Origin: an uncultured Lachnospiraceae bacterium
Lineage (GTDB): Bacteria > Bacillota > Clostridia > Lachnospirales > Lachnospiraceae
Length of the DNA: 38,572 nucleotides
Assembly: GCA_902799015.1 (NCBI GenBank)
Contig: CADBZI010000014.1
Coordinates: 1-38,572 of the forward strand
Reading direction: 5' to 3'
A program made the translations under genes and the position numbers. The notes below the pieces were generated by a model. The model did not search any database, was not told the origin of the DNA, and worked only from the letters and a program-made list of their open reading frames with translations. Below are positions 8,851 to 38,572 of this stretch, piece after piece; the first letter of the stretch is position 1, and each line of letters begins with the position of its first letter.

Positions 8851-11265
8851 ATGGAAAAGATAAAATCCGTCCCAAAGGGAAAGACGACGGAAAAAGGCAA
8901 GAGCGCCGGAAAGGCCAGGAGCGCCGCAGCAGCGAAAACCGCGCAGCCGGCAAAGAGTGCCGGACGGAGAAAGAGCACGGAGCCGGCAAAAAGCACCGTC
9001 CGGAAAAAGAGCGCGGAAGCAGTGCGTGAGCCTGCGCCCCAAAGCGCTGTGGACTTTTATCATCCGTCCTACTATACAAACCGTGAGCTGAGCTGGCTTG
9101 ATTTCAATTACCGGATCCTGGATGAGGCCAGGGACAAGACGAACCCTCTTTTTGAGCGGCTGAAGTTTCTGTCCATCACTGCCTCAAACCTGGATGAGTT
9201 TTTCATGGTACGTGTCGCCTCCCTGATGGACATGGTGCATGCGAAGGTGAACAAACCGGACCTTGCCGGACTGACGCCGGCACAGCAGCTGGAACAGGTG
9301 GAGCAGAAGTGCCATGAGCTGATTGACAAGCAGTATTCCACGCTGTCCCGTTCCCTGATCCCCGCGCTTCGCAATGAGGGATATGATCTGGTGACCGATC
9401 CCGAAGTTCTGAGCATACCGCAGAGAGAGTATCTGGAAACCTATTTTGAGGAGACCGTCTATCCCGTGCTGACGCCGACCGCGGTGGATGCGTCGAGACC
9501 ATTCCCTCTGATCCGGAACAAATCCCTGAATATCGGCGCCCTGATCTCCAGACGCAAAGGGGACGCGGATGAGAAGAATTCCTCTGCCGCGGCATTCATC
9601 GAGAGCCTGCAGAAGAATGGTGAGAAGATCGCGGATAAGATCTCAAAGGACAAGACGCTGAAGAAGGGGATGATGTTTGCAACGGTTCAGGTTCCCAATG
9701 TCCTTCCGCGTGTTGTCAGAATCCCCTCCGAAGACGGAGCCGGAATATCAGGCGTTCTGCTCGAGGATCTGATCAAGGCGCACCTGGATATTCTGTTCAC
9801 AGGCTATGATGTTGTCTGTGCGCACACCTACCGCATTACAAGAAATGCAGACATGGAGCTCGACGAGGATGACTCGGACGATCTTTTAGAGGAGATCCAG
9901 AGCAAGCTGAAGCAGCGGCAGTGGGGGGAAGTCATCCGCTTTGAGTATGAAGACTCCATGAATCCGAAGCTTCTGAAGATTCTGCGCCGGGAATTCAATG
10001 TCGGGGATTCCGAGATGTATCCGATCCAGGGCCCGCTTGATCTGACCTACCTGATGAAGCTCTATTCGCTGCCCGGATCGGACCGGCTTAAGGATAAGCC
10101 TTGGACGCCCCAGCCCAATCCGGCTCTTCGGAAAATGGACGGCCGGGATCTGTTCGCCATGATCCGGAAGCAGGATATCTTCCTGCATCATCCGTATCAG
10201 ACCTTTGATCCGGTTGTGGACTTGATCCGTACCGCCTCCAAGGATCCGGATGTCCTTGCCATCAAGATGACACTGTACCGGGTATCCGGCAATTCTCCGA
10301 TCGTTGCCGCGCTGGCAGCTGCCGCGGAGAACGGAAAGCAGGTCACTGCGCTGGTTGAACTGAAGGCGCGGTTTGACGAGGAGAATAATATCCAGTGGGC
10401 GGAGATGCTGGAGAAAGCCGGCTGCCATGTGATCTACGGGCTTGTCGGTCTGAAGACGCACAGCAAGATTGCCCTTGTCGTCAGGCGGGAGGAGGACGGC
10501 ATCCGCCGTTATGTCCATCTTGCGACCGGCAATTACAACGATTCCACGGCGAAGCTGTACACGGACTGCGGGATTATGACCTGCAGAGAGGCTTACGGGG
10601 AGGATGCGACCGCTGTCTTCAATATGCTGTCCGGCTACAGCGAGCCGAGACAGTGGAACCGGCTGTATCTTGCGCCGATCTGGCTGCGGGATGCCTTCTA
10701 TATGCTGATCAACCGTGAGATCCAGCATGCCAGGGAACATGAGCCTGCGCACATTACGGCAAAGATGAATTCTCTGTGTGACAGAGAGATCATTGCGAAG
10801 CTTTACGAGGCTTCCGCGGCGGGCGTCAAGATTGATCTGATCATCCGCGGAATCTGCTGCCTGAAGGTCGGGATTCCGGGTGTCTCGGAAAACATTACGG
10901 TACGCTCCATTGTCGGAACATTTCTGGAGCATGCAAGAATCTTCCGGTTTGCCAATGGCGGAAACGAAGAGGTCTATATGGCCTCCGCGGACTGGATGCC
11001 GAGAAATCTGGACCGCCGCGTAGAGATCCTGTTCCCGCTTGAGGATGAGTCCTGCAAGGCGCAGGCGATTCATATTCTGGATGTTCAGATGGCGGACACA
11101 ATGAAAGCGCATGTGCTCGGGAGCGACAACACCTATGAGAAGGTTGACCTGAGAGGAAAGGCAAAGATCGGAGCCCAGGATACGCTGATGAAGGAAGCAC
11201 TTCAGGCGGGCAGCGATCCGGATGATCCGATCCGGAGCAGAACCTTTATTCCGGCGCAGCCATGA
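8851..11265 (+). CDS. ppk: Polyphosphate kinase PPK1 with a basic N-terminal extension
   Basis: An 804-residue enzyme that reversibly polymerises the terminal phosphate of ATP into polyphosphate. The family core begins near residue 77 ([17 protein letters not shown]) and is complete. The phosphorylated His lies in LKTHSKIAL, the second His in FLEHARIF and a conserved Arg in [17 protein letters not shown] is also present. The first 70 or so residues are an added Lys/Ala/Ser/Arg-rich, probably disordered tail containing two 12-residue tandem units. The ATG at 8851 follows GAGAGGGGTAAGG. It lies 73 bases after the Ppx-like gene and 19 bases before ispG. Confidence 0.95.
8947..9018 (+). repeat. 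36-bp tandem repeat in the ppk N-terminal tail
   Basis: Two adjacent 36-base units (8947-8982 and 8983-9018) encode [12 protein letters not shown] and [12 protein letters not shown]. They keep the reading frame and extend the basic tail of PPK. Confidence 0.75.
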
Positions 11266-23283: not shown

Positions 23284-23490
23284 CCTCCACGCAAGCTGAG
23301 TCGCGCGCACCGTACTAGCTTCGCGTCGCCGCAAGCTCCTCGCGCACCACGCGCGATATGCTTGCTTGCCGTGGAGGGAAAGGGTGTTGGCGTGCCCCTA
23401 CATGAGTGCGTAGTGGGGCCCACGACGTCCAGTGGACGCTCGTTTAGCGCCGACCGAAGCGAAGCGCGGAGCAATCCGTAATCGACTTTT
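23284..23490. repeat. GC-rich hairpin cluster, candidate dispersed element or structured RNA
   Basis: This part of the 475-base gene-free gap (23104-23578) differs sharply in composition from the A/T-rich sequence before it. A long nested stem pairs 23284-23296 with 23364-23377 (one bulge). Inside are TCGCGCG/CGCGCGA and AGCTT/AAGCT arms. It is followed by GCCCCTAC/GTAGTGGGGC (23394-23419), CGTCC-AGT-GGACG (23426-23438), CGCT/AGCG (23437-23449) and CGAC-TTTT-GTCG (about 23483-23494). A 69-codon minus-strand frame crosses it but has an unlikely composition and no good start site. The remaining bases to 23578 show only the tgt ribosome site. Confidence 0.5.
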
Positions 23491-23578
23491 GTCGGGTTGA
23501 TCCTAAACTAGAACAATCAGAAAATAATCCGGATGCTTGCACACGACGGCAGATCCGGGTCTGACAGGAGAATCTTAC

Positions 23579-24721
23579 ATGAGTGGAACCTACCAGCTGA
23601 TCACAACAGACGGCAGAGCGAAGCGGGGACAGCTGAGCACCGTACACGGAACGATTCAGACACCTGTATTTATGAATGTCGGGACAGTGGCCGCAATCAA
23701 AGGGGCAGTCTCGACGGATGATCTGCGCGGGATCGGGACGCAGGTGGAGCTGAGCAACACCTATCATCTGCATGTGAGAACCGGGGATGAAGCGATTAAA
23801 AAGCTGGGCGGCCTTCATAAGTTTATGAACTGGGACAGGCCGATCCTGACCGACTCCGGCGGATTTCAGGTATTCTCTCTTGCCTCGCTGCGCAAGATCA
23901 AGGAAGAAGGCGTTTCTTTTCAGTCGCATATAGACGGCCGCAGGATCTTTATGGGGCCGGAGGAAAGCATGCAGATTCAGTCGAATCTGGCTTCCACGAT
24001 TGCGATGGCATTTGATGAGTGTCCTTCCTCCAGGGCGGACAGAGCGTATGTGCAGGATTCCGTCGACCGGACCTACCGGTGGCTTGTGCGGTGCAAGGCG
24101 GAGATGAAGCGGCTGAACAGCCTGCCGGACACGATCAATCGGGAGCAGATGCTGTTTGGCATCAATCAGGGTGCCGTGTATGACGATATCAGGATCGAGC
24201 ATGCGAAAAAGATCGCGGAGCTGGAGCTTGACGGATACGCGGTCGGCGGCCTGGCGGTCGGAGAGACGCACGAGGAGATGTACCGCGTGCTTGACAGTAC
24301 GGTGCCGTTCCTTCCGAAGGAAAAGCCCGTCTATCTGATGGGAGTCGGCACGCCGGTGAACATCGTCGAGGGCGTATACCGCGGCGTCGATTTCTTCGAC
24401 TGTGTCTATCCCTCCCGGAACGGAAGGCATGGACATGCGTATACGCACCGCGGAAAGATCAATCTGAATAACGCAAGGTTCGCTTTTGACGAAACCCCTC
24501 TGGAGGAAGGCTGCCACTGCCCGGCATGCAGAAGCTACACAAGAGCCTATATTCACCATCTGTTCAAGGCGAAGGAGATGCTTGGGATGCGGCTGCTTGT
24601 GCTTCATAACCTGTACTTCTACAACCATCTGATGGAAGAGATCCGCACCGCGATCGAAGAACACCGCTACGAACAGTTTCGCGCAGACTGGATCGAAACC
24701 TATGAATCGGGGGAGACATAA
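23579..24721 (+). CDS. tgt: tRNA-guanine transglycosylase
   Basis: A 380-residue enzyme that swaps guanine-34 of certain tRNAs for the queuosine precursor preQ1. The TIM-barrel shows ILTDSGGFQVFSL with the base-binding Asp (about residue 95), the active-site GVDFFDCVYPSRNGRHG with the nucleophilic Asp (about 270) and FGINQGA. The zinc site is CHCPAC plus a further Cys/His region (RSYTRAYIHHL). The length is typical. The ATG at 23579 follows ACAGGAGA; the in-frame ATG at 23537 is rejected for lack of a ribosome site. It precedes yajC, a common gene order. No clear promoter was found upstream. Confidence 0.96.
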   Translation: MSGTYQLITTDGRAKRGQLSTVHGTIQTPVFMNVGTVAAIKGAVSTDDLRGIGTQVELSNTYHLHVRTGDEAIKKLGGLHKFMNWDRPILTDSGGFQVFSLASLRKIKEEGVSFQSHIDGRRIFMGPEESMQIQSNLASTIAMAFDECPSSRADRAYVQDSVDRTYRWLVRCKAEMKRLNSLPDTINREQMLFGINQGAVYDDIRIEHAKKIAELELDGYAVGGLAVGETHEEMYRVLDSTVPFLPKEKPVYLMGVGTPVNIVEGVYRGVDFFDCVYPSRNGRHGHAYTHRGKINLNNARFAFDETPLEEGCHCPACRSYTRAYIHHLFKAKEMLGMRLLVLHNLYFYNHLMEEIRTAIEEHRYEQFRADWIETYESGET

Positions 24722-24732
24722 AGAAGTTCTTC

Positions 24733-24761
24733 TTGAATACAGGCGGAAAGTTGTGTAGAAT
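24733..24761 (+). promoter_or_regulatory. Sigma-A promoter for yajC
   Basis: TTGAAT (24733-24738), a 17-base spacer and TAGAAT (24756-24761), just after the tgt stop. yajC can therefore be transcribed independently of tgt. Confidence 0.66.
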
Positions 24762-24833
24762 AACCTACGGTTTCGTCCGGATGATCCGTACGGATGGAGA
24801 CAGGAAGAGAGCATATTAAGGAGGAATTGTTTC

Positions 24834-25184
24834 ATGAGTCCAGCACTGTTAGAGACTTCTGCCGCGGCAGGCGGTTCCGGCATGATCATGATGATCGTCT
24901 ATATGGTGATTATCTTCGGCGTGATGTATTTTCTGGCGATCCGTCCGCAGAAGAAAGAGCAGAAGCGAATGGCTGCACTTCTTTCCACGATGGAGGTCGG
25001 GGACACGGTTGTGACGAACAGCGGCTTCTACGGAACGGTGATCCAGGTTTCCGAGGAAGATTGCATCATTGAGTTCGGAAACAACAGAAACTGCCGTATT
25101 CCGATGCGCAAGAGCGCGATCGCCGAGGTTGAAAAGGCTTCTGACGGAATCGCCGATGCCCAGACGGCTGCGGATAAGAAGTGA
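24834..25184 (+). CDS. yajC: Preprotein translocase subunit YajC
   Basis: A 116-residue membrane protein with one transmembrane helix (about residues 16-36, rich in M, I, V) followed by the family signature FLAIRPQKKEQKRM and a small cytoplasmic domain (VGDTVVTNSGFYGTV). YajC associates with SecDF at the Sec translocon. The ATG at 24834 follows AAGGAGG (about 24818-24824). Unlike many genomes, secD and secF do not follow; a terminator ends the unit. Confidence 0.94.
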   Translation: MSPALLETSAAAGGSGMIMMIVYMVIIFGVMYFLAIRPQKKEQKRMAALLSTMEVGDTVVTNSGFYGTVIQVSEEDCIIEFGNNRNCRIPMRKSAIAEVEKASDGIADAQTAADKK

Positions 25185-30445: not shown

Positions 30446-31603
30446 ATGTACAAATATGCATGCCTGAACCCGATCAGTGAAAGCGGACTTCGCGGGTTTG
30501 GGGACAATTACACGAAAACCGATGACGTGAAAGACGCAGACGCAATTCTCGTGCGCAGCGCGGATATGCATGCAATGGAGCTGGAGGAGAATGTCCTTGC
30601 TGTTGCCAGAGCAGGCGCCGGCGTCAATAATATTCCGGTTGAGGAGTATGCGTCCAAAGGGGTTGTTGTCTTCAATACGCCCGGCGCAAACGCGAACGGT
30701 GTGAAGGAGATGGTATTTGCAGGCATGCTGCTGGCAGCCCGGGATATCGTGGGAGGCGTGAACTGGGTCAAGGCAAATGTGAATGATGAGAACATCAAGA
30801 AGGATGTCGAGAAACAGAAGAAAGAATTTGCCGGAACCGAGCTTTCCGGAAAGAAGCTGGGCGTGATCGGCCTTGGCGCGATCGGGAATCTGGTTGCGAA
30901 TGCGGCGGTGCATTTCGGGATGGAGGTATATGGCTATGATCCGTATATCTCGGTGAACTGGGCCTGGAACCTGAGCCGTTCTGTCAGGCATATCGACAAC
31001 GTCGAGACGATCTACCGCGAGTGTGATTACATCACGATTCATGTTCCGCTGCTTGACAGCACGAAAAAGATGATCGGAAAGGATGCGATCGCGCTCATGA
31101 AACCGAATGCGGTTTTGCTGAATTTTGCGCGTGATCTGCTGGTGGATGAGGATGAGGTCCTCAAGGCGCTGGATGAGAGGCGTCTTGCGCACTATGTCTG
31201 CGATTTCCCGAATACAAAGACAAATGGCCATGAGAAGGTGATTCTGACACCGCATCTGGGCGCGTCCACACAGGAGAGTGAGGAGAACTGCGCGGTGATG
31301 GCAGTGGAGCAGCTGAGGGATTTCCTGGAAAACGGCAATATCCGCAACAGCGTCAATTATCCTGCCTGCAGCATGGGACAGTGCACCTCACAGCACAGAA
31401 TCGCGATCTACCACAAGAATGTCAAACACATGATCCGCCAGTTCGCGGACATTCTCTCCTACACGAATGTTGCGAACATGTCCAATACCAGCCGCGGTGA
31501 GTATGCTTACACCATGATTGACATTGAGGACGCTCTGGAGCCGGAGACGGTCAGACAGATCAGCGGCATTGAAGGAGTGGCCCGCGTCAGAGTTGTGCGT
31601 TAA
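30446..31603 (+). CDS. serA: D-3-phosphoglycerate dehydrogenase with ACT domain
   Basis: A 385-residue NAD-dependent dehydrogenase, the first step of serine synthesis. The NAD-binding domain has KLGVIGLGAIGNLVANAA (about residues 134-151). The catalytic Arg lies in LLNFARD, and the catalytic His in TPHLGAST. The usual Glu motif is replaced by CDFPN, as in many clostridial SerA proteins. A short ACT domain closes the protein (YTMIDIED to VARVRVVR), suggesting serine feedback. It begins 59 bases after ilvB following GAGAAGGAG. It may be read from the leuB promoter; no separate promoter was evident. Confidence 0.9.
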   Translation: MYKYACLNPISESGLRGFGDNYTKTDDVKDADAILVRSADMHAMELEENVLAVARAGAGVNNIPVEEYASKGVVVFNTPGANANGVKEMVFAGMLLAARDIVGGVNWVKANVNDENIKKDVEKQKKEFAGTELSGKKLGVIGLGAIGNLVANAAVHFGMEVYGYDPYISVNWAWNLSRSVRHIDNVETIYRECDYITIHVPLLDSTKKMIGKDAIALMKPNAVLLNFARDLLVDEDEVLKALDERRLAHYVCDFPNTKTNGHEKVILTPHLGASTQESEENCAVMAVEQLRDFLENGNIRNSVNYPACSMGQCTSQHRIAIYHKNVKHMIRQFADILSYTNVANMSNTSRGEYAYTMIDIEDALEPETVRQISGIEGVARVRVVR

Positions 31604-31678: not shown

Positions 31679-34069
31679 ATGAAGAAAAAACTGTATGATC
31701 TGATGGATTGGGGCCGTATCGAGGGAATTGTTTATTCGGAGGAAAACCAGCCGCACAGCTTTCTGGGCGCTCAGCTTACCCCTCAGGGCGTGCTGATCCA
31801 GACATTTCTTCCTGCTGCTGAAGCGGTGTGCGTGACGGCGGGGAAAGAGCGCGTCCAGATGGAGATGGTCGATGAGAATGGCTTCTTCGCCGCGCTGCTC
31901 TCCGGAAAGGAGATTCCGGATTACCGGCTGGAGATCCGTTATCAGGATGAGAGCACCAGATCCGTGCGGGATCCCTATAACTATGAACCGCAGATACCGG
32001 AAAAGATTCTGAAAAAGTTCCGCGCAGGGATCTGCTATAACATCTACGAGTATCTCGGCGCGCATCCTGTCACGGTGAACGGGGAGCGCGGCATGTATTT
32101 TGCCGTATGGGCACCGAACGCACTCCGCGTCAGCCTTGTCGGTGATTTCAATCACTGGGACGGCCGGGTTCTTCCGATGAGGAAGCTTACGGAATATGGG
32201 ATCTTTGAGCTGTTCGTTCCCGAGATGAAGGAGGGCGTTCTCTATAAGTACGAGATCAAGACGCCGGGCGGACTGACCTTCCTCAAGACAGATCCCTATG
32301 GATATCAGTGTGAGCTCAGACCTGACAATGCTTCGGTTACAACCGATCTTTCCTCGTATGAGTGGAAGGATGCCTCCTGGATGGAGGAACGCCAGCGGGT
32401 GGATGTGAAGACTCTGCCGATGAGTGTCTATCAGATCCATGCCGGTACCTGGCAGGTTCCCGGGAACGAAGATGCGCCTTTTGAAAATTACCGGCAGCTG
32501 GCGGAAAAGCTGGCCGCTTATGTGCTGGAGATGGGCTACACCCATGTGGAGCTTCTGCCGATTATGGAGCATTCGGAGGACCGTACGCTTGGCTTTGCCA
32601 CGACCGCCTATTATGCGCCTACCAGCCGGTACGGAAGCGCGCAGGACTTCATGTATTTTGTGGACTATCTGCATCAACACAAGATCGGCGTCATCCTGGA
32701 CTGGGTGCCGGGTCATTTCCCGCGGGATGTGAACGCTCTGATCGGCTTTGACGGCACGAATCTGTATGAGCACCGGGATCCCCGTCAGTCACTCTATGCG
32801 TATGACGGAAGCCTGACCTACAATTACGGCCGGGCTGAAGTCAAGAATTTCCTGATCGCGAACGCCCTGTTCTGGGCGAAGGTATATCATGCGGACGGGC
32901 TGCGTCTGGAGGATATCTCGCGCATGCTGTATCTTGACTACGGCAAGAATCCGGGACAGTGGGTCGCAAACCTGTACGGGGGAAATGAGAACCTGGACGC
33001 GGTGGAATTCTTCAAGCACCTGGATTCCATCTTCCGCCAGGAGGCAGGCGGCGCGCTGCTGATCGCGCAGGACAGCTCCCAGTGGCCGATGGTGACCTCG
33101 GCTGTGGAGGAGGACGGACTCGGATTTGATTTTAAGTGGAATAAGGGATTTCGGGATGCGCTGATCGATTATATGCAGCTGGATCCGATCTTCCGGGGCC
33201 CGCATCACCAGGAGCTGATCTTCAGCATGGTGTACAATTATTCCGAAAACTTCATGCTTGCGCTGGACTATGAGGATGTGTCCGGAAGGCATGGTTCCAT
33301 GTACAGCCAGGTTCCCGGCAGAAGAAAGACGAAGCTGGCAAACCTGCGGGCAATGTACGGCTATATGATGCTTCATCCGGGCAAGAAGCTGTTTGCCATG
33401 GGCTGCGAGATTGCGCAGAAGGCAGCGCTCAGCGATCAGGAGGGCGTTGACTGGAGCTCGCTGGAGGAGGAAGAGAACAGGCAGTTTCAATCCTACTGCG
33501 CCGCGCTTTTGCATTTTTATCGTGAGAATCCCGCTCTTTACGCACTGGACTATGCGCCGGAAGGGTTTGAGTGGATCAACAATATTTCCGCAAATGAAAA
33601 CATGCTGGTATTCCTGCGCCGCAGTGCCATCGAGGAAGAGACGCTTCTCGCGGTTGTGAACTTCTCGAATCTGGCCTACAAGAACCATAAGATCGGCGTT
33701 CCCTTCCCCGGGAAGTACAAGGAGATCCTGAATTCGGATGCGGTATCCTTCGGCGGAGAGGGCAATGTGAATCCCAGAGTCAAGAATTCACGGCAGGATG
33801 AATGTGACGAACTGCCCAATTCCATCCGGATCACGGTTCCTCCGCTCGGAATCAGCATCTTCCGCTGCAGCAGAGTGGAGCCTGCGAAAGAGACAAAGGA
33901 GTCAAAGCGGTCTGCTTCGAAGACAGCGGGGCAGCTCTCCGGCGGGAAAAAGAAGACAGCCGGAAAGAAGGCGGCACAAAAGTCCGGCCATGCCCCGGCC
34001 GGGACTGCTTCGAAAAAAAGTCTGAAGGAAGAACTGGAGGAAAAGGTACAGAGGGAAGATTACCGCTGA
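31679..34069 (+). CDS. GlgB-like 1,4-alpha-glucan branching enzyme paralogue, catalytic residues substituted
   Basis: A 796-residue GH13/CBM48 protein with the overall layout of bacterial GlgB: N-terminal modules to about 230 (YFAVWAPNALRVSLVGDFNHWDG), a barrel to about 630 and a C-terminal beta domain. LDWVPGHFPRD and FDGTNLYEH are conserved. The nucleophile position reads GLRLED (E411) where GlgB has RVDA. The acid/base reads IAQDS (Q464) where GlgB has AEES. The third carboxylate reads DYEDV (E532) where GlgB has SHDEV. The 53- and 68-residue spacings equal those of E. coli D405, E458 and D526. The last 60 or so residues are a Lys/Ala/Ser-rich tail. The frame is intact, so it is likely an expressed protein with reduced or changed activity. 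Confidence 0.88.
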   Translation: MKKKLYDLMDWGRIEGIVYSEENQPHSFLGAQLTPQGVLIQTFLPAAEAVCVTAGKERVQMEMVDENGFFAALLSGKEIPDYRLEIRYQDESTRSVRDPYNYEPQIPEKILKKFRAGICYNIYEYLGAHPVTVNGERGMYFAVWAPNALRVSLVGDFNHWDGRVLPMRKLTEYGIFELFVPEMKEGVLYKYEIKTPGGLTFLKTDPYGYQCELRPDNASVTTDLSSYEWKDASWMEERQRVDVKTLPMSVYQIHAGTWQVPGNEDAPFENYRQLAEKLAAYVLEMGYTHVELLPIMEHSEDRTLGFATTAYYAPTSRYGSAQDFMYFVDYLHQHKIGVILDWVPGHFPRDVNALIGFDGTNLYEHRDPRQSLYAYDGSLTYNYGRAEVKNFLIANALFWAKVYHADGLRLEDISRMLYLDYGKNPGQWVANLYGGNENLDAVEFFKHLDSIFRQEAGGALLIAQDSSQWPMVTSAVEEDGLGFDFKWNKGFRDALIDYMQLDPIFRGPHHQELIFSMVYNYSENFMLALDYEDVSGRHGSMYSQVPGRRKTKLANLRAMYGYMMLHPGKKLFAMGCEIAQKAALSDQEGVDWSSLEEEENRQFQSYCAALLHFYRENPALYALDYAPEGFEWINNISANENMLVFLRRSAIEEETLLAVVNFSNLAYKNHKIGVPFPGKYKEILNSDAVSFGGEGNVNPRVKNSRQDECDELPNSIRITVPPLGISIFRCSRVEPAKETKESKRSASKTAGQLSGGKKKTAGKKAAQKSGHAPAGTASKKSLKEELEEKVQREDYR

Positions 34070-34182: not shown

Positions 34183-34857
34183 TCAGTCGCCGGAGGAGGC
34201 CTGACCGTCATCAGAAGCAGATTGCTTTGCTTCATCGAGATAGCTGTACAGCGTGTATTTGGAGATGCCAAAGATCTGGCAGACCTTGGGCCCGGACTTG
34301 GTGATCAGGAACGCGCCGGAATCGTTCAGGAACCGGATCGCTCTGACCTTTTCCGCCTTGTCCATGAGTGCCGCGGGCTTTCCGACCATACGGATGGACT
34401 GGTCGATCAGAGAGTCCAGAAGATCGGCAACATTTGTAGAGATCGGCTCCGGTTCTTTGGTGCTTTGCAGGGAAGTGTTGTAAGAGTGGAGCGCATGTTC
34501 GCCGGCAACGGTTAAGGTGATGTCGTTGTTGATCGCCAGAACACCGATCGCTTTTCCATTTTCATCGCGCAGAAAGATCGTGCTGGACTTCAGAATCTTT
34601 CCGTCTCTGGTTTTGGTGAGATAGGAAAGCTTGTCCGAGTGGGTTTCCTCGGCGTCATGGATCGCTTCGAGCGCAATCTTGGAGGGCCCGTCCCCGATCG
34701 AACGTCCGGAGATATGTCCGTTCTCAATCGCGATAATGGTGTGATCCAGATCGTCGCCGGTCAGATCGTGAAGAACGACTTCACAGGTCGAGCCGAATTG
34801 AATGGCAAGTGCTTTTACCAGACGTCTGGCGAAGTCAAAGGAATCCGCTTTCTTCAT
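34183..34857 (-). CDS. YheO/DauR-type transcriptional regulator (PAS-like plus HTH)
   Basis: A 224-residue regulator. The N-terminal half is a YheO-like PAS domain (CEVVLHDL, then HIIGRS-like GHISGRSIGD, and SSTIFLRDENGKAIGVLAINND). The C-terminal part is a helix-turn-helix of the HTH_22 type (VRFLNDSGAFLI-like segment, then VCQIFGISKYTLYSYLDE). The family includes DauR. It is divergent from ssnA-ygfK, so local control of those genes is the simplest inference. The ATG at 34857 follows GAGGG; the in-frame ATG at 34902 has no site. The effector may be a purine or related metabolite, which is not shown by the sequence. Confidence 0.88.
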   Translation of the reverse strand: MKKADSFDFARRLVKALAIQFGSTCEVVLHDLTGDDLDHTIIAIENGHISGRSIGDGPSKIALEAIHDAEETHSDKLSYLTKTRDGKILKSSTIFLRDENGKAIGVLAINNDITLTVAGEHALHSYNTSLQSTKEPEPISTNVADLLDSLIDQSIRMVGKPAALMDKAEKVRAIRFLNDSGAFLITKSGPKVCQIFGISKYTLYSYLDEAKQSASDDGQASSGD

Positions 34858-34897
34858 CTTACAACCCTCATCTGCATGATACTTTCCAGGCAGCGCA

Positions 34898-34926
34898 TTC
34901 ACGCTCCCAGGAGCTGAATATAAAAT
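34898..34926 (+). promoter_or_regulatory. Candidate promoter for ssnA
   Basis: TTCACG (34898-34903), a 17-base spacer and TAAAAT (34921-34926). Its spacer contains GCTCC-CA-GGAGC (34903-34914), a possible operator. Confidence 0.42.
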
Positions 34927-34955
34927 ATTTTAAGGCAGGAAAACAAATATTACAA
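34927..34955 (-). promoter_or_regulatory. Candidate promoter for the YheO-like regulator
   Basis: On the minus strand TTGTAA (34950-34955), a 17-base spacer and TAAAAT (34927-34932). Its -10 abuts the -10 of the ssnA promoter, and together they form the perfect 12-base palindrome TAAAATATTTTA. Confidence 0.45.
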
Positions 34956-34967
34956 GGAGGTAGAACA

Positions 34968-36332
34968 ATGCTTTTGGTGGGAAACGGACGCGTTTTTACG
35001 CTGGATGATTCAAATCCTTATCTGAAAGACGGAGCGGTCGTAATAGACGGCGAAGTAATCAAGGAGATCGGTTCCTTTGCCGCTATGAAGGAGAAGTATC
35101 CCGACGCAGAGTTTGTGGATGCGCATGGACAATTGATTCTGCCCGGCTTTATCAACGCGCACACGCACATTTACTCAGGTCTTGCAAGAGGGCTTGCGAT
35201 CAAGGGAAACAATCCGACGAATTTCTATGAGGTGCTCGACGGAACCTGGTGGAAGATAGACCGTCATCTGACCATAGACGGAACAAAAGCGTGCGCCTAT
35301 GCCACGATTCTTGACTGCATCCGGGACGGTGTGACGACCATCTTTGATCATCATGCTTCCTTCTGTGAGATTCCGGGAAGCCTGTTTGCCATCAAAGATG
35401 TGGCGAAGGAGCTCGGGATCCGCTCCTGCCTGTGCTATGAGGTCTCAGAGCGCGACGGCATGGAAAAGTGTGATCAGGGCATTCAGGAGAATGCTGACTT
35501 TATTGCCTGGGCGCAGAAAGAGGACAGCGATATGATCAAGGCCATGTTCGGCGGCCATGCGCTGTTTACGATTTCTGACAGGACGTTCCAGAAGATGGTG
35601 GAGGCGAATGACGGGCGGACCGGATTCCACATTCATGTTTCCGAAGGAATGAATGATGTCTGGGACAGTCTTCAGAATTACGGATGCCGTCCGGTGGAGC
35701 GCCTTTTGAACAATCGGATTCTCGGACCGATGACCCTGCTGGGACATTGCATTCACCTCAGCCCGGATGAGATGGACATGATCAAAGAGACGAACACCAT
35801 GGCAGTGAACAACCCCGAGTCCAATATGGGCAACGCGGTAGGCTGCGCCCCGGTTCTTCAGATGCTGAAGAAGGGGATCACGGTCGGCCTTGGTACGGAT
35901 GCCTATACACATGACATGCTGGAATCTTTGAAGGTGTTCCTGATCATCCAAAGACACAACGCCGGCCTTCCCAATGTTGCGTTCGGGGAAGCGCTTCAGA
36001 CACTTCTGGAAAACAACCGGAAGATCTGTGCGAAGTACTTCAAAAAGCCGCTTGGCATTCTGAAGGAAGGCGCAGCCGCTGACGTCATTGTCATGGATTA
36101 CAAGCCCTTCACGCCGATCGATGAGAACAATCTCGGCGGACATATGATCTTCGGGCTCATGGGAAAGAATTGCCGTACCACCATCATCAACGGTAAGGTC
36201 CTGTATCAGGACCGTGCGTTTGTCGGCATCGACGAGGAGAAGATCAATGCCTGGACGATGGAGCAGGCATGCAGGCTGTGGGGCGAACTGAACGAAACGA
36301 CTTACGATCCGGAGCAATACCTGAGCCGGTGA
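34968..36332 (+). CDS. ssnA: SsnA-type putative aminohydrolase
   Basis: A 454-residue metal-dependent amidohydrolase. The metal-binding motif HTHIYSGLARGL (about residues 60-71), HIHVSEG, GHCIHLS and the Asp in GLGTDAYTHDM are intact, so a divalent-metal active site is expected. The product matches SsnA, a chlorohydrolase/guanine-deaminase-like enzyme commonly beside ygfK, xdh-type and hydantoinase genes in purine-degrading anaerobes. Its substrate is not settled. The ATG at 34968 follows AAGGAGG with seven-base spacing; an in-frame extension to 34809 overlaps the regulator and is rejected. ygfK follows after 83 bases. Confidence 0.92.
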   Translation: MLLVGNGRVFTLDDSNPYLKDGAVVIDGEVIKEIGSFAAMKEKYPDAEFVDAHGQLILPGFINAHTHIYSGLARGLAIKGNNPTNFYEVLDGTWWKIDRHLTIDGTKACAYATILDCIRDGVTTIFDHHASFCEIPGSLFAIKDVAKELGIRSCLCYEVSERDGMEKCDQGIQENADFIAWAQKEDSDMIKAMFGGHALFTISDRTFQKMVEANDGRTGFHIHVSEGMNDVWDSLQNYGCRPVERLLNNRILGPMTLLGHCIHLSPDEMDMIKETNTMAVNNPESNMGNAVGCAPVLQMLKKGITVGLGTDAYTHDMLESLKVFLIIQRHNAGLPNVAFGEALQTLLENNRKICAKYFKKPLGILKEGAAADVIVMDYKPFTPIDENNLGGHMIFGLMGKNCRTTIINGKVLYQDRAFVGIDEEKINAWTMEQACRLWGELNETTYDPEQYLSR

Positions 36333-36415: not shown

Positions 36416-38572
36416 ATGAGTGATCTGATGAGACTGATCCCTTACAGACAGCTTCTGGCGTGGTCGGTCGGGGAGTATGAAAAGAGCGGGAGCATCTTTG
36501 GAGTTTCGAAGATTCTCAAGAGAAATGATAAGCATTATCCGATCTTTGACCAGAAGATCAAGACCGTGTTCGGACCGGCAGCCGGGCCAAATACCCAGCT
36601 GGCACAGAATCTGGTGGCTTCTTATCTGGCGGGATCTTCCTGGTTCGAGCTCAAGACGGTCCAGAAGATGGACGGACGTGAGCTTGCGGCCTGTGTGCCG
36701 AAGCCATGTATTGTTGCCGAGGATGAGTGCTACAACTGCGAGTGGTCCACCGAGCTGGAGGTCGGACAGGCTTATGAGGAATATGTGAAAGCCTGGGTGC
36801 TGATTCACATTCTGGCGACAGAGCTGGAGCTGGGATGTCCGAACGCGGTCGTCTTCAACATGTCTGTCGGCTATGACCTGGACGGCATTAAGACCGAGAA
36901 GATTCAGACGTTCCTTGATAACATGATCGAAGCGAAGGACAACCCTGTCTTCCGGGACTGCATCGCAGCTTCCCTGGAGGCGGTGGATCAGGGCATTCTG
37001 AAGAAGGTGACCAAAGAGGACATCCTGAAGATTCCGTCCCGGATCTCGAATTCCGTCACGGAGTCAACACTGCACGGATGTCCCCCGAAGGAGATCGAGG
37101 CGATTGCTTCCTACCTGCTTCAGGAAAAGCACCTGAATACTTATGTAAAGTGCAATCCGACGCTGCTGGGATATGACTTCGCGAGAAAGACACTCGATGA
37201 CCTGGGATTTGATTACATTGCCTTTGACGATCATCATTTTACGACGGATCTTCAGTGGGAGGATGCCGTTCCGATGTTTGAGCGTCTGATCCGCCTTTCC
37301 GAAAGCCTTGGACTTGCGATCGGAATCAAGCTGACGAATACCTTCCCGGTGGATGTGAAGGCCGGCGAGCTCCCGAGCGAGGAGATGTATATGTCCGGAC
37401 GCAGCCTCTATCCGCTGACGGTTCAGCTCGTCAAGAGAATCGCGAAGCAGTTTGACGGAAAACTTCGGATCTCCTATTCGGGCGGCGCTGACTACTTCAG
37501 CATCCGGGATCTGGTCACGGCGGGTGTCTGGCCGGTCACGATGGCAACCACCCTGCTTAAGCCGGGCGGATATCAGAGACTGTATCAGATCGGGAAGCTC
37601 CTGGAGGATATCCCGGATGATGAATGGGAGGGAGTGGATGTCGAAAAGGTCAGTGAACTGGCTGACGCAGCTTTGACCAGGAAGCGGAACCGCAAGAGTG
37701 TGAAACCGCTTCCATCCAGGAAGAAGGAAGAGAGCCTTCCGCTCATGGACTGCTTCGACGCGCCCTGTCAGAGCGGATGTCCGATTCATCAGGATATTCC
37801 TGCGTATCTGCGTGCGATGGAGGAGGGTAGAAGTGAGGATGCGCTTCAGATCATCCTTGAGAAAAATGCACTTCCGTTCATTACCGGAACGATCTGTCCG
37901 CATACATGCGGTGACCGCTGCATGCGAAATCACTATGAGGAGAGCGTCCATATCCGGGAGGTGAAGCTGGCGGCTGCGAAAGAAGCCGCGTCTGCTGTCT
38001 GTAAAAAGGCGGAAACCGGAAACGCGGCAAGCGGCAAGAAGGTGGCGGTTGTCGGAGGCGGTCCTGCCGGACTTGCGGCAGCTTCCTTCCTGTCAAGGGC
38101 CGGAGCCCAGGTCACGGTATTCGAGAAGCAGGATACCCTCGGCGGTGTCGTGCGCCAGGCAATTCCGCTCTTCAGAATTCCGGATGAGGCAATTGACCAT
38201 GATATTGCTCTGTGTGCCAGATACGGGGCACAGTTCAAAACAGGCTGTGAGATTACAGACCTGGATGCGCTGAAGAAGGAAGGCTTTACAGATATCCTTC
38301 TGGCTGTCGGCGCATGGAAGCCGGGCAGAAGTGCGCTTCAATACGGAGAGGCTCTGGATGCGCTGGAATTCCTGACGAAGGTCAAGAGAGACGACAGCGC
38401 TGTGAATCTGGGCGAGAAGGTTGTTGTGATCGGCGGCGGAAATACCGCGATGGATGTCTCCCGGGCCGCGAAGCGCGTGAAGGGCGTAAAGCAGGTCAGC
38501 CTTGTATACCGCAGAACAAAGAGATACATGCCTGCGGATGAGGAGGAGCTTCAGGAAGCCATCGCAGATGGC
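36416..38572 (+). CDS. ygfK: YgfK-like putative selenate reductase/FAD-NAD(P) oxidoreductase, 5' part
   Basis: An open frame of 719 codons running off the right edge; the family is about 1,000 residues, so roughly 70% is visible. The N-terminal half follows a dihydropyrimidine dehydrogenase-like barrel (VFGPAAGPNTQLAQN near residue 50, STLHGCPPKEIE, YSGGADYFSI). From about residue 440 a GltD-like part begins with iron-sulfur cysteines (CFDAPCQSGCPIH, CPHTCGDRC), then FAD binding VAVVGGGPAGLAAA (about 545) and NAD(P) binding VVIGGGNTAMDVS. In E. coli it is named as a selenate reductase subunit; in gut anaerobes it goes with anaerobic purine breakdown. The ATG at 36416 follows GGAGGAGG. Confidence 0.9.
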   Translation, partial: MSDLMRLIPYRQLLAWSVGEYEKSGSIFGVSKILKRNDKHYPIFDQKIKTVFGPAAGPNTQLAQNLVASYLAGSSWFELKTVQKMDGRELAACVPKPCIVAEDECYNCEWSTELEVGQAYEEYVKAWVLIHILATELELGCPNAVVFNMSVGYDLDGIKTEKIQTFLDNMIEAKDNPVFRDCIAASLEAVDQGILKKVTKEDILKIPSRISNSVTESTLHGCPPKEIEAIASYLLQEKHLNTYVKCNPTLLGYDFARKTLDDLGFDYIAFDDHHFTTDLQWEDAVPMFERLIRLSESLGLAIGIKLTNTFPVDVKAGELPSEEMYMSGRSLYPLTVQLVKRIAKQFDGKLRISYSGGADYFSIRDLVTAGVWPVTMATTLLKPGGYQRLYQIGKLLEDIPDDEWEGVDVEKVSELADAALTRKRNRKSVKPLPSRKKEESLPLMDCFDAPCQSGCPIHQDIPAYLRAMEEGRSEDALQIILEKNALPFITGTICPHTCGDRCMRNHYEESVHIREVKLAAAKEAASAVCKKAETGNAASGKKVAVVGGGPAGLAAASFLSRAGAQVTVFEKQDTLGGVVRQAIPLFRIPDEAIDHDIALCARYGAQFKTGCEITDLDALKKEGFTDILLAVGAWKPGRSALQYGEALDALEFLTKVKRDDSAVNLGEKVVVIGGGNTAMDVSRAAKRVKGVKQVSLVYRRTKRYMPADEEELQEAIADG

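Follow-up and report, generated by a model that had tools for sequence, protein, structure and literature searches.

We analysed a stretch of DNA of 38,572 nucleotides (the window; GenBank contig CADBZI010000014.1 of assembly GCA_902799015.1, from an uncultured Lachnospiraceae bacterium) and found that it carries a long-form gene for the glycogen branching enzyme GlgB in which all three catalytic residues are replaced. The gene (31679..34069, forward strand; 796 amino acids from an ATG start) was characterised through its open reading frame, Pfam and NCBIfam models, an AlphaFold2 (AF2) model and Foldseek, and probably encodes a non-catalytic protein. No long copy in the genus retains the Asp/Glu/Asp triad (D/E/D), and a second, short GlgB with an intact triad is present in the same genome. 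Loss of catalysis alongside a D/E/D paralogue, with the fold, glucan-binding shell and basic tail retained, is consistent with a subunit or scaffold that binds glucan without catalysis. From these sequences, and by analogy with plant ISA2, we favour with moderate confidence a present role as a glucan-binding scaffold or regulatory subunit of glycogen metabolism.

By descent the window protein is a GlgB branching enzyme, as judged from its sequence and modelled structure: domain order, equivalog scores and predicted fold all fit. Pfam found GlgB_N (PF22019; residues 11-100, 31709..31978, forward strand), CBM_48 (residues 126-208, 32054..32302, forward strand), Alpha-amylase and Alpha-amylase_C, in the order expected for GlgB. 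Three NCBIfam GlgB equivalogs scored above their cut-offs (NF003811, 758.1 against 741; NF008967, 717.8 against 577; TIGR01515, 707.7 against 463.95), and three further branching-enzyme models (NF011293, NF009221 and NF011294) scored below theirs. The AF2 model had a mean predicted local distance difference test score (pLDDT) of 84.1 and a predicted template modelling score (pTM) of 0.85. Foldseek searches with this model returned GlgB as top matches, the TMq being 0.85 for 3k1d and about 0.76 for the Cyanothece entries. The protein does not belong to the isoamylase ISA2 family, as the nearest solved relatives are GlgB proteins (E down to 4e-186) and isoamylases appear only at E of about 1e-4.

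In glycoside hydrolase family 13 (GH13), the three catalytic positions hold an Asp nucleophile, a Glu acid/base and an Asp stabiliser (PMC11046441, available part). The window copy departs from an active GlgB in having Glu, Gln and Glu at these positions. On the forward strand, E411 (codon 32909..32911) occupies the nucleophile position, Q464 (33068..33070) the acid/base position, and Y531-E532 (33269..33274) stand where active GlgB has His-Asp; E411, Q464 and E532 align with D405, E458 and D526 of Escherichia coli K-12 GlgB. The original prediction, made from the letters of this DNA, had proposed a retained barrel with these three replacements in firm alignment, a Tyr for the His before the third carboxylate and a WGY motif changed to LGF. 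All of this was borne out. The motifs align without gaps to 5gqw, a solved Cyanothece GlgB (DGIRVDAV to DGLRLEDI, IAEES to IAQDS, LSHDEI to LDYEDV), and E. coli H525, W298 and Y300 correspond to Y531, L304 and F306; D335, H340 and R403 (E. coli numbering) are retained. These correspondences were computed by alignment; labels such as Y300 and H340, and their roles beyond the triad, are what we take them to be in E. coli GlgB. Shifting the alignment by one residue does not rescue the triad, although the window protein has Asp at 412, 465 and 533. Genus members with D411 carry D412 additionally beside it (as FDD, VDD or LDD), and the Asp at 533 is missing in six of the seven copies that have Glu/Gln/Glu (EQE).

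We surveyed 19 genomes of the genus, many of them incomplete. A long GlgB copy was found in 18; the remaining genome (G164, 72% complete) yielded a short copy only, and in another (G162) the long-copy gene is split across two contigs. Counting triads among these relatives gave EQE in seven copies, DEG in five, AEE in two, and DEQ, DEA, DEE and DKE in one each, with D/E/D in 0/18. Assembly or sequencing error, or chance, is very unlikely as the origin of these replacements, because E/Q/E recurs in seven genus genomes (the window's included) and none of the 18 copies is D/E/D; three of the E/Q/E copies (L062-L064) match records from three separate projects. Records that match genus members belong to uncultured Lachnospiraceae, and some of these were sampled from rumen or reindeer. 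In the genus, 18/18 copies have lost the stabiliser Asp and the preceding His (D526 and H525), and 18/18 keep H340. This pattern suggests that loss probably began with the third carboxylate, in the ancestor, and that the nucleophile and acid/base followed in some branches.

A search of the window's own genome for a second, canonical glgB found a short D/E/D copy on contig C1, an intact-triad paralogue. Short GlgB genes or their fragments occur in 19/19 genus genomes, as fragments alone in two. All three positions could be read in the short copies of 17 genomes (L001, L050-L061 and L202-L205), and 17/17 are D/E/D. In G163, two fragments jointly show D, E and D; in G156, the third position alone is readable in two fragments and is D in both. 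A further, more distant D/E/D type of GlgB is found in some genomes (L211 in G154:C68; L234-L237), with 31-38% identity to the window copy. Glycogen synthase (glgA) and GlgD scored above the cut-off in 19/19 genus genomes and phosphorylase was found in 19/19 (as short fragments only in G164 and G165), and thus the glycogen pathway is present in the genus. Two glgA matches above the cut-off were seen in 13/19 genomes and two glgD matches in 13/19 (for example G000:C61 with G000:C1, and G000:C13 with G000:C72), so the doubling of the pathway extends beyond GlgB.

The simplest reading of the gene's surroundings is that the long GlgB lost catalysis in place rather than arising as a fresh duplicate. 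Directly upstream in the window lies a serA-like 2-hydroxyacid dehydrogenase gene (30446..31603, forward strand; Pfam and synteny), which we use as a marker of the shared locus and do not propose as a functional partner. In the three genus loci with the longest flanks (L062-L064) the gene lies downstream of leuB-ilvD-ilvB-serA, and in L065 and L066 downstream of ilvD-ilvB-serA. Among active long copies, the same ilvD-ilvB-serA order precedes L067 (which also has leuB), L075, L076 and L077, and serA lies upstream of L016, L028 and L070. A fresh duplicate is disfavoured because the gene shares this locus with several active long forms (L067, L075-L077). The arrangement is not universal: genus member L042 has ilvB directly upstream and no serA, and within 10 kb flanks the active long copies L069, L072, L080 and L081 have none of leuB-ilvD-ilvB-serA and other neighbours. 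The term paralogue in the original prediction thus holds with respect to the short GlgB of the same genome, and can be refined, in that the gene is also the positional counterpart of the long GlgB of several active relatives.

Broken triads are not confined to the genus. We drew a family sample evenly, as 150 genomes, and fetched 60 of the 66 long matches listed beyond the first 30 loci. Among the matches listed, D/E/D is present in each of the 28 closest long copies from outside the genus (L006-L033) and in 49 of the 60 further copies, and the other 11 lack it. The triads of these 11 are NED (2), TED (2), NNS, CTE, GDQ, HDE, SKD, DEE and DQR. A named collection added DEN twice (L078 and L079) and NED in Falcatimonas sp. 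MSJ-15 (L073); to judge by length and position, this last locus lies on the same contig as L178 of the family sample, and L178 stands for it in the alignment. The broken-triad long copies outside the genus are thus L073, L078, L079, L148, L165, L174, L180, L187, L189, L191, L193, L194 and L200. Named-collection loci L084-L141 (58 loci, mostly from cyanobacteria and other phyla, with some Lachnospiraceae and other Clostridia) are all D/E/D. The detailed pattern outside the genus differs, in that H340 is lost in 11/13 of these copies and H525 kept in 10/13. Among the family genomes searched are ones in which GlgB has a single match, others that carry two or more D/E/D copies and others again in which a broken copy accompanies a D/E/D one. 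All 11 genomes with a broken copy in the family sample also hold a D/E/D GlgB (in G010, one such copy was read in two pieces and another, more distant, is whole at the triad), but many genomes with an active long copy also have more than one match among the matches listed, and we claim no significance for the association.

Trees of these proteins require a minimum of seven changes between D/E/D and other triads with 139 rows, and eight with 55 rows. The larger tree holds 139 of 200 translated loci, having excluded second copies of genus and family loci already represented and all but five of L084-L141. Both were quick searches under LG+G4, and the meeting of the long branches L178 and L187 is a warning in reading them. 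A single origin of the loss was rejected: forcing the 20 broken rows of the 55-row tree into one clade gave an approximately unbiased test P value (p-AU) of 5.7e-42, and the same constraint without L078 and L079 a p-AU of 6.7e-9. Two smaller joins were compatible with the data, namely a joint origin of the genus clade with L148, L194, L191 and L200 (p-AU 0.072) and a four-row clade of L178, L187, L165 and L174 (p-AU 0.32). Because these joins were not rejected, a fair range for the number of independent catalytic losses would be about 6-8.

We next mapped where residues had changed. As reference we used 65 active long copies, which were chosen as D/E/D, so that conservation of their triad is circular; Y300, D335, H340, R403 and H525, each 65/65, are not subject to this circularity. 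Of 174 positions invariant (97% or more) in the reference, the window copy has lost 33. Genus copies kept 102/102 invariant alignment cells in the N-domain (residues 1-110 of the window protein), 532/544 in CBM48 and 233/233 in the C-domain, against 1588/2202 in the barrel. The 13 other broken copies kept 76/78, 383/415, 164/169 and 1174/1582, respectively. Nineteen positions are lost in every genus copy and lie mostly in or just behind barrel-strand ends by AF2 secondary structure; in our reading of the model they appear to face the catalytic cleft.

The surface around the damaged barrel retains candidate glucan-binding residues. E. coli GlgB has twelve surface glucan sites, and mutation of sites I, IV or VI lowers its activity (PMC10254366, available part). 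The tryptophans of these three sites, E. coli W586, W159 and W628, correspond to W592 (33452..33454, forward strand), W160 in the CBM48 domain and W632 (33572..33574, forward strand). Genus copies keep them in 18/18, 17/17 (one gap) and 18/18 cases, and active long copies in 65/65, 65/65 and 63/63 (two gaps). Three of the twelve E. coli sites thus have residues that are shared and kept here, and these may serve the same role in this GlgB family. The glycogen binding suggested in the original prediction is in this way supported indirectly, through the conservation of CBM48, the C-domain and these three tryptophans.

The broken copies are under purifying selection on an intact reading frame after catalytic loss. 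No internal stops were found in the broken copies read, and the ratio of non-synonymous to synonymous substitution rates (dN/dS, NG86 method) was 0.037-0.114 in nine pairs of genus copies versus 0.022-0.042 in nine matched pairs of short copies. In all nine matched pairs the broken copy had the higher value, by a factor of about 1.5 to 4; ratios from the several pairs with dS above 1 are rough. No folded domain exceeded 0.19 wherever a value could be computed. For the barrel, five genus pairs gave 0.030-0.091, and three pairs of active long copies gave 0.034-0.040. Genus-wide loss, the D/E/D second copy, purifying selection and the concentration of changes in the barrel together give the pseudoenzyme status proposed in the original prediction good support at the level of sequence.

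The protein ends in a Lys/Ala-rich tail of low model confidence (residues 733-796, 33875..34066, forward strand), with pLDDT below 50 for residues 736-779 and a short predicted helix at 782-795. The 17 closed genus copies have a median tail length of 74 residues, and the median is 79 for 32 active long copies and 51 for the 13 other broken copies; for 19 short copies it is 1, and for 53 copies of loci L087-L141, mostly from other phyla, it is 13. Most long forms of the family, active or broken, therefore have a basic tail, and short forms are without it. A motif like SLKEELEEKV (34019..34048, forward strand, in the window copy) occurs in 12/17 genus, 12/32 active long, 1/13 other broken, 0/19 short and 0/53 L087-L141 copies; the regular expression was written after the tails had been inspected, and shuffled tails gave almost no matches. 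A degenerate DNA pattern for LKEELE(E/A/D)KV had six matches in the 19 genus genomes, all of them in this gene. A docking motif shared with another gene was rejected, as the pattern is absent in that form from the other genes of these genomes.

In the explanation that we favour, the long-form GlgB would have lost catalysis in or before the genus ancestor, with the separate short GlgB keeping D/E/D. CBM48, the C-terminal domain and surface sites would bind glycogen, and the protein would serve the active glycogen enzymes as a scaffold or regulatory subunit; the tail and its LKEELEEKV helix might take part in docking or tethering. We infer from sequence its inactivity, its glucan binding, the existence of a partner and a regulatory effect. 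A bolder proposal, which we hold tentatively and consider rather doubtful, is that long-form GlgB always had a second, non-catalytic job, based on its glucan-binding shell and histone-like tail, for example as an anchor that holds glycogen to nucleic acid, to polyphosphate or to an assembly of enzymes. Where the short GlgB took over branching, catalysis might then have been lost about seven times, leaving glycogen tether proteins.

Several observations weigh against a glucan-binding scaffold. At most of the other nine glucan sites, the listed E. coli residue already differs in active long copies. Sites I, II and VII lie in a region described as conserved only in Enterobacteria (PMC10254366, available part), and W592 may therefore be kept for structure. 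The barrel is in some pairs as constrained as in active long copies (0.030 in L040/L041), which would not be required of a pure binding scaffold. The tail evolves fast in one pair, with a dN/dS of 1.1 over 33 codons in L043/L044; the value in L035/L037 is 0.33, and dS is saturated in the other pairs. The LKEELEEKV motif is missing in 5/17 closed genus tails (among them L034, which has SLKEELEEKT) and in 12/13 other broken copies. Finally, the gene adjoins serA and ilv genes, outside any glg operon.

The strong barrel constraint across the five genus pairs would also suit an enzyme with a different reaction, in which new acidic residues have reshaped the old active site. The genus has five fixed derived residues, Q252 in 17/17 copies and D376, D412 (32912..32914, forward strand; Ala in active long GlgB), D465 and S467 in 18/18 each, and these would allow for a new pocket. 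In the EQE clade the polar replacements are retained in 7/7 copies, though 61% of all barrel columns are invariant there. However, eight old active-site positions have a mean entropy of 1.27 bits in the genus, versus 0.49-0.99 for the folded domains, and this high variability speaks for release from catalysis; the triad, moreover, varies among subclades (EQE, DEG, DEQ, DEA, DEE, AEE and DKE), which is unexpected for a conserved reaction. We consider a new reaction unlikely. Slow residual branching or hydrolysis, with the altered carboxylates in their old role, seems to us improbable. The nucleophile and acid/base are both kept in 8/18 genus copies (the DE- forms) and the window copy retains D335, H340 and R403, but it also has a Gln as acid/base and a Glu as nucleophile, and H525 and the stabiliser Asp are gone throughout the genus. 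GH13 mutants at the triad positions lose nearly all activity.

We give a similarly small chance to a structural partner without glucan binding of its own, for instance a subunit that stabilises the short GlgB in a heteromer. As a rule bacterial GlgB is a monomer, and such a partner would have no need to conserve the glucan-site tryptophans and CBM48. What speaks for it is the second GlgB in every checked genome with a broken copy, D/E/D wherever fully readable, and the precedent within the pathway of GlgD, the non-catalytic regulatory subunit of GlgC (PMC10395257, available part). A pseudogene in the course of loss, harmless since the short GlgB suffices, would fit the second GlgB in 19/19 genus genomes and the raised dN/dS in all nine matched pairs, but decay is nearly excluded by stop-free reading frames, dN/dS far below 1 outside the tail, untouched N- and C-domain invariants and persistence of the gene in 18/19 genomes, many of them incomplete, with the loss seen across the genus.

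Other genes in the window were annotated as well. A polyphosphate kinase gene (8851-11265, forward strand; Pfam) is of possible interest given the Lys-rich GlgB tail, a link that is conceivable. An open reading frame of 481 amino acids (23444-24889, reverse strand) had no Pfam or NCBIfam match at E 0.001; relatives at 49-55% identity lie in the same neighbourhood of L062-L066. Downstream of the long glgB are a gene for a YheO-like PAS/HTH regulator (34183-34902, reverse strand), found near it in 12/18 genus loci (with short flanks), an SsnA-like aminohydrolase (34809-36332, forward strand) and a Fer4/pyridine-nucleotide oxidoreductase reading frame that starts at 36416 on the forward strand and is cut by the window end (38572).

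These results bear on annotation, as family models score the window protein as a 1,4-alpha-glucan branching enzyme above their cut-offs, and estimating branching capacity by counting glgB can mislead. If its role is structural, bacteria would use non-catalytic subunits to order their glycogen, much as plants do with starch, and if the tethering proposal were true, these proteins would form a recurrent bacterial counterpart of plant ISA2. Because the loss is repeated, comparison among these genomes can test why selection keeps a non-catalytic glucan enzyme. Among the matches listed in searches of the open-access literature, with subscription journals mostly outside their scope, we found no bacterial GlgB pseudoenzyme, and the available part of a pseudoenzyme review (PMC10211241) does not mention amylase, glycosidase, glycoside hydrolase or starch. 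Plants are already known to have a non-catalytic GH13 partner, and we did not find its recurrent bacterial branching-enzyme version described.

Four known systems invite comparison. Canonical long GlgB (Cyanothece 5GQW; 3K1D) shares its domains and predicted fold with the window protein, and several active relatives share its locus, but the window copy has lost the triad and changed the surrounding barrel invariants. The chlamydial GlgA-GlgB fusion contains an inactive branching-enzyme domain (PMC11046441, available part); it arose by genome rearrangement, whereas here a free-standing, intact protein has had its triad replaced. GlgD resembles the proposed role as a non-catalytic subunit in the glycogen pathway, but belongs to an unrelated protein family and acts at another step. 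The closest parallel in kind is plant ISA2, a non-catalytic GH13 glucan protein that binds ISA1 and in which the replacement of catalytic residues is old and selected (PMC12510319, available part). Like the window protein, ISA2 had its residues replaced in an ancestor and is kept beside a catalytic paralogue; it belongs, however, to the debranching (isoamylase) family of plants, whereas the protein described here is a bacterial branching enzyme by descent, known from sequence, in which the loss has recurred.

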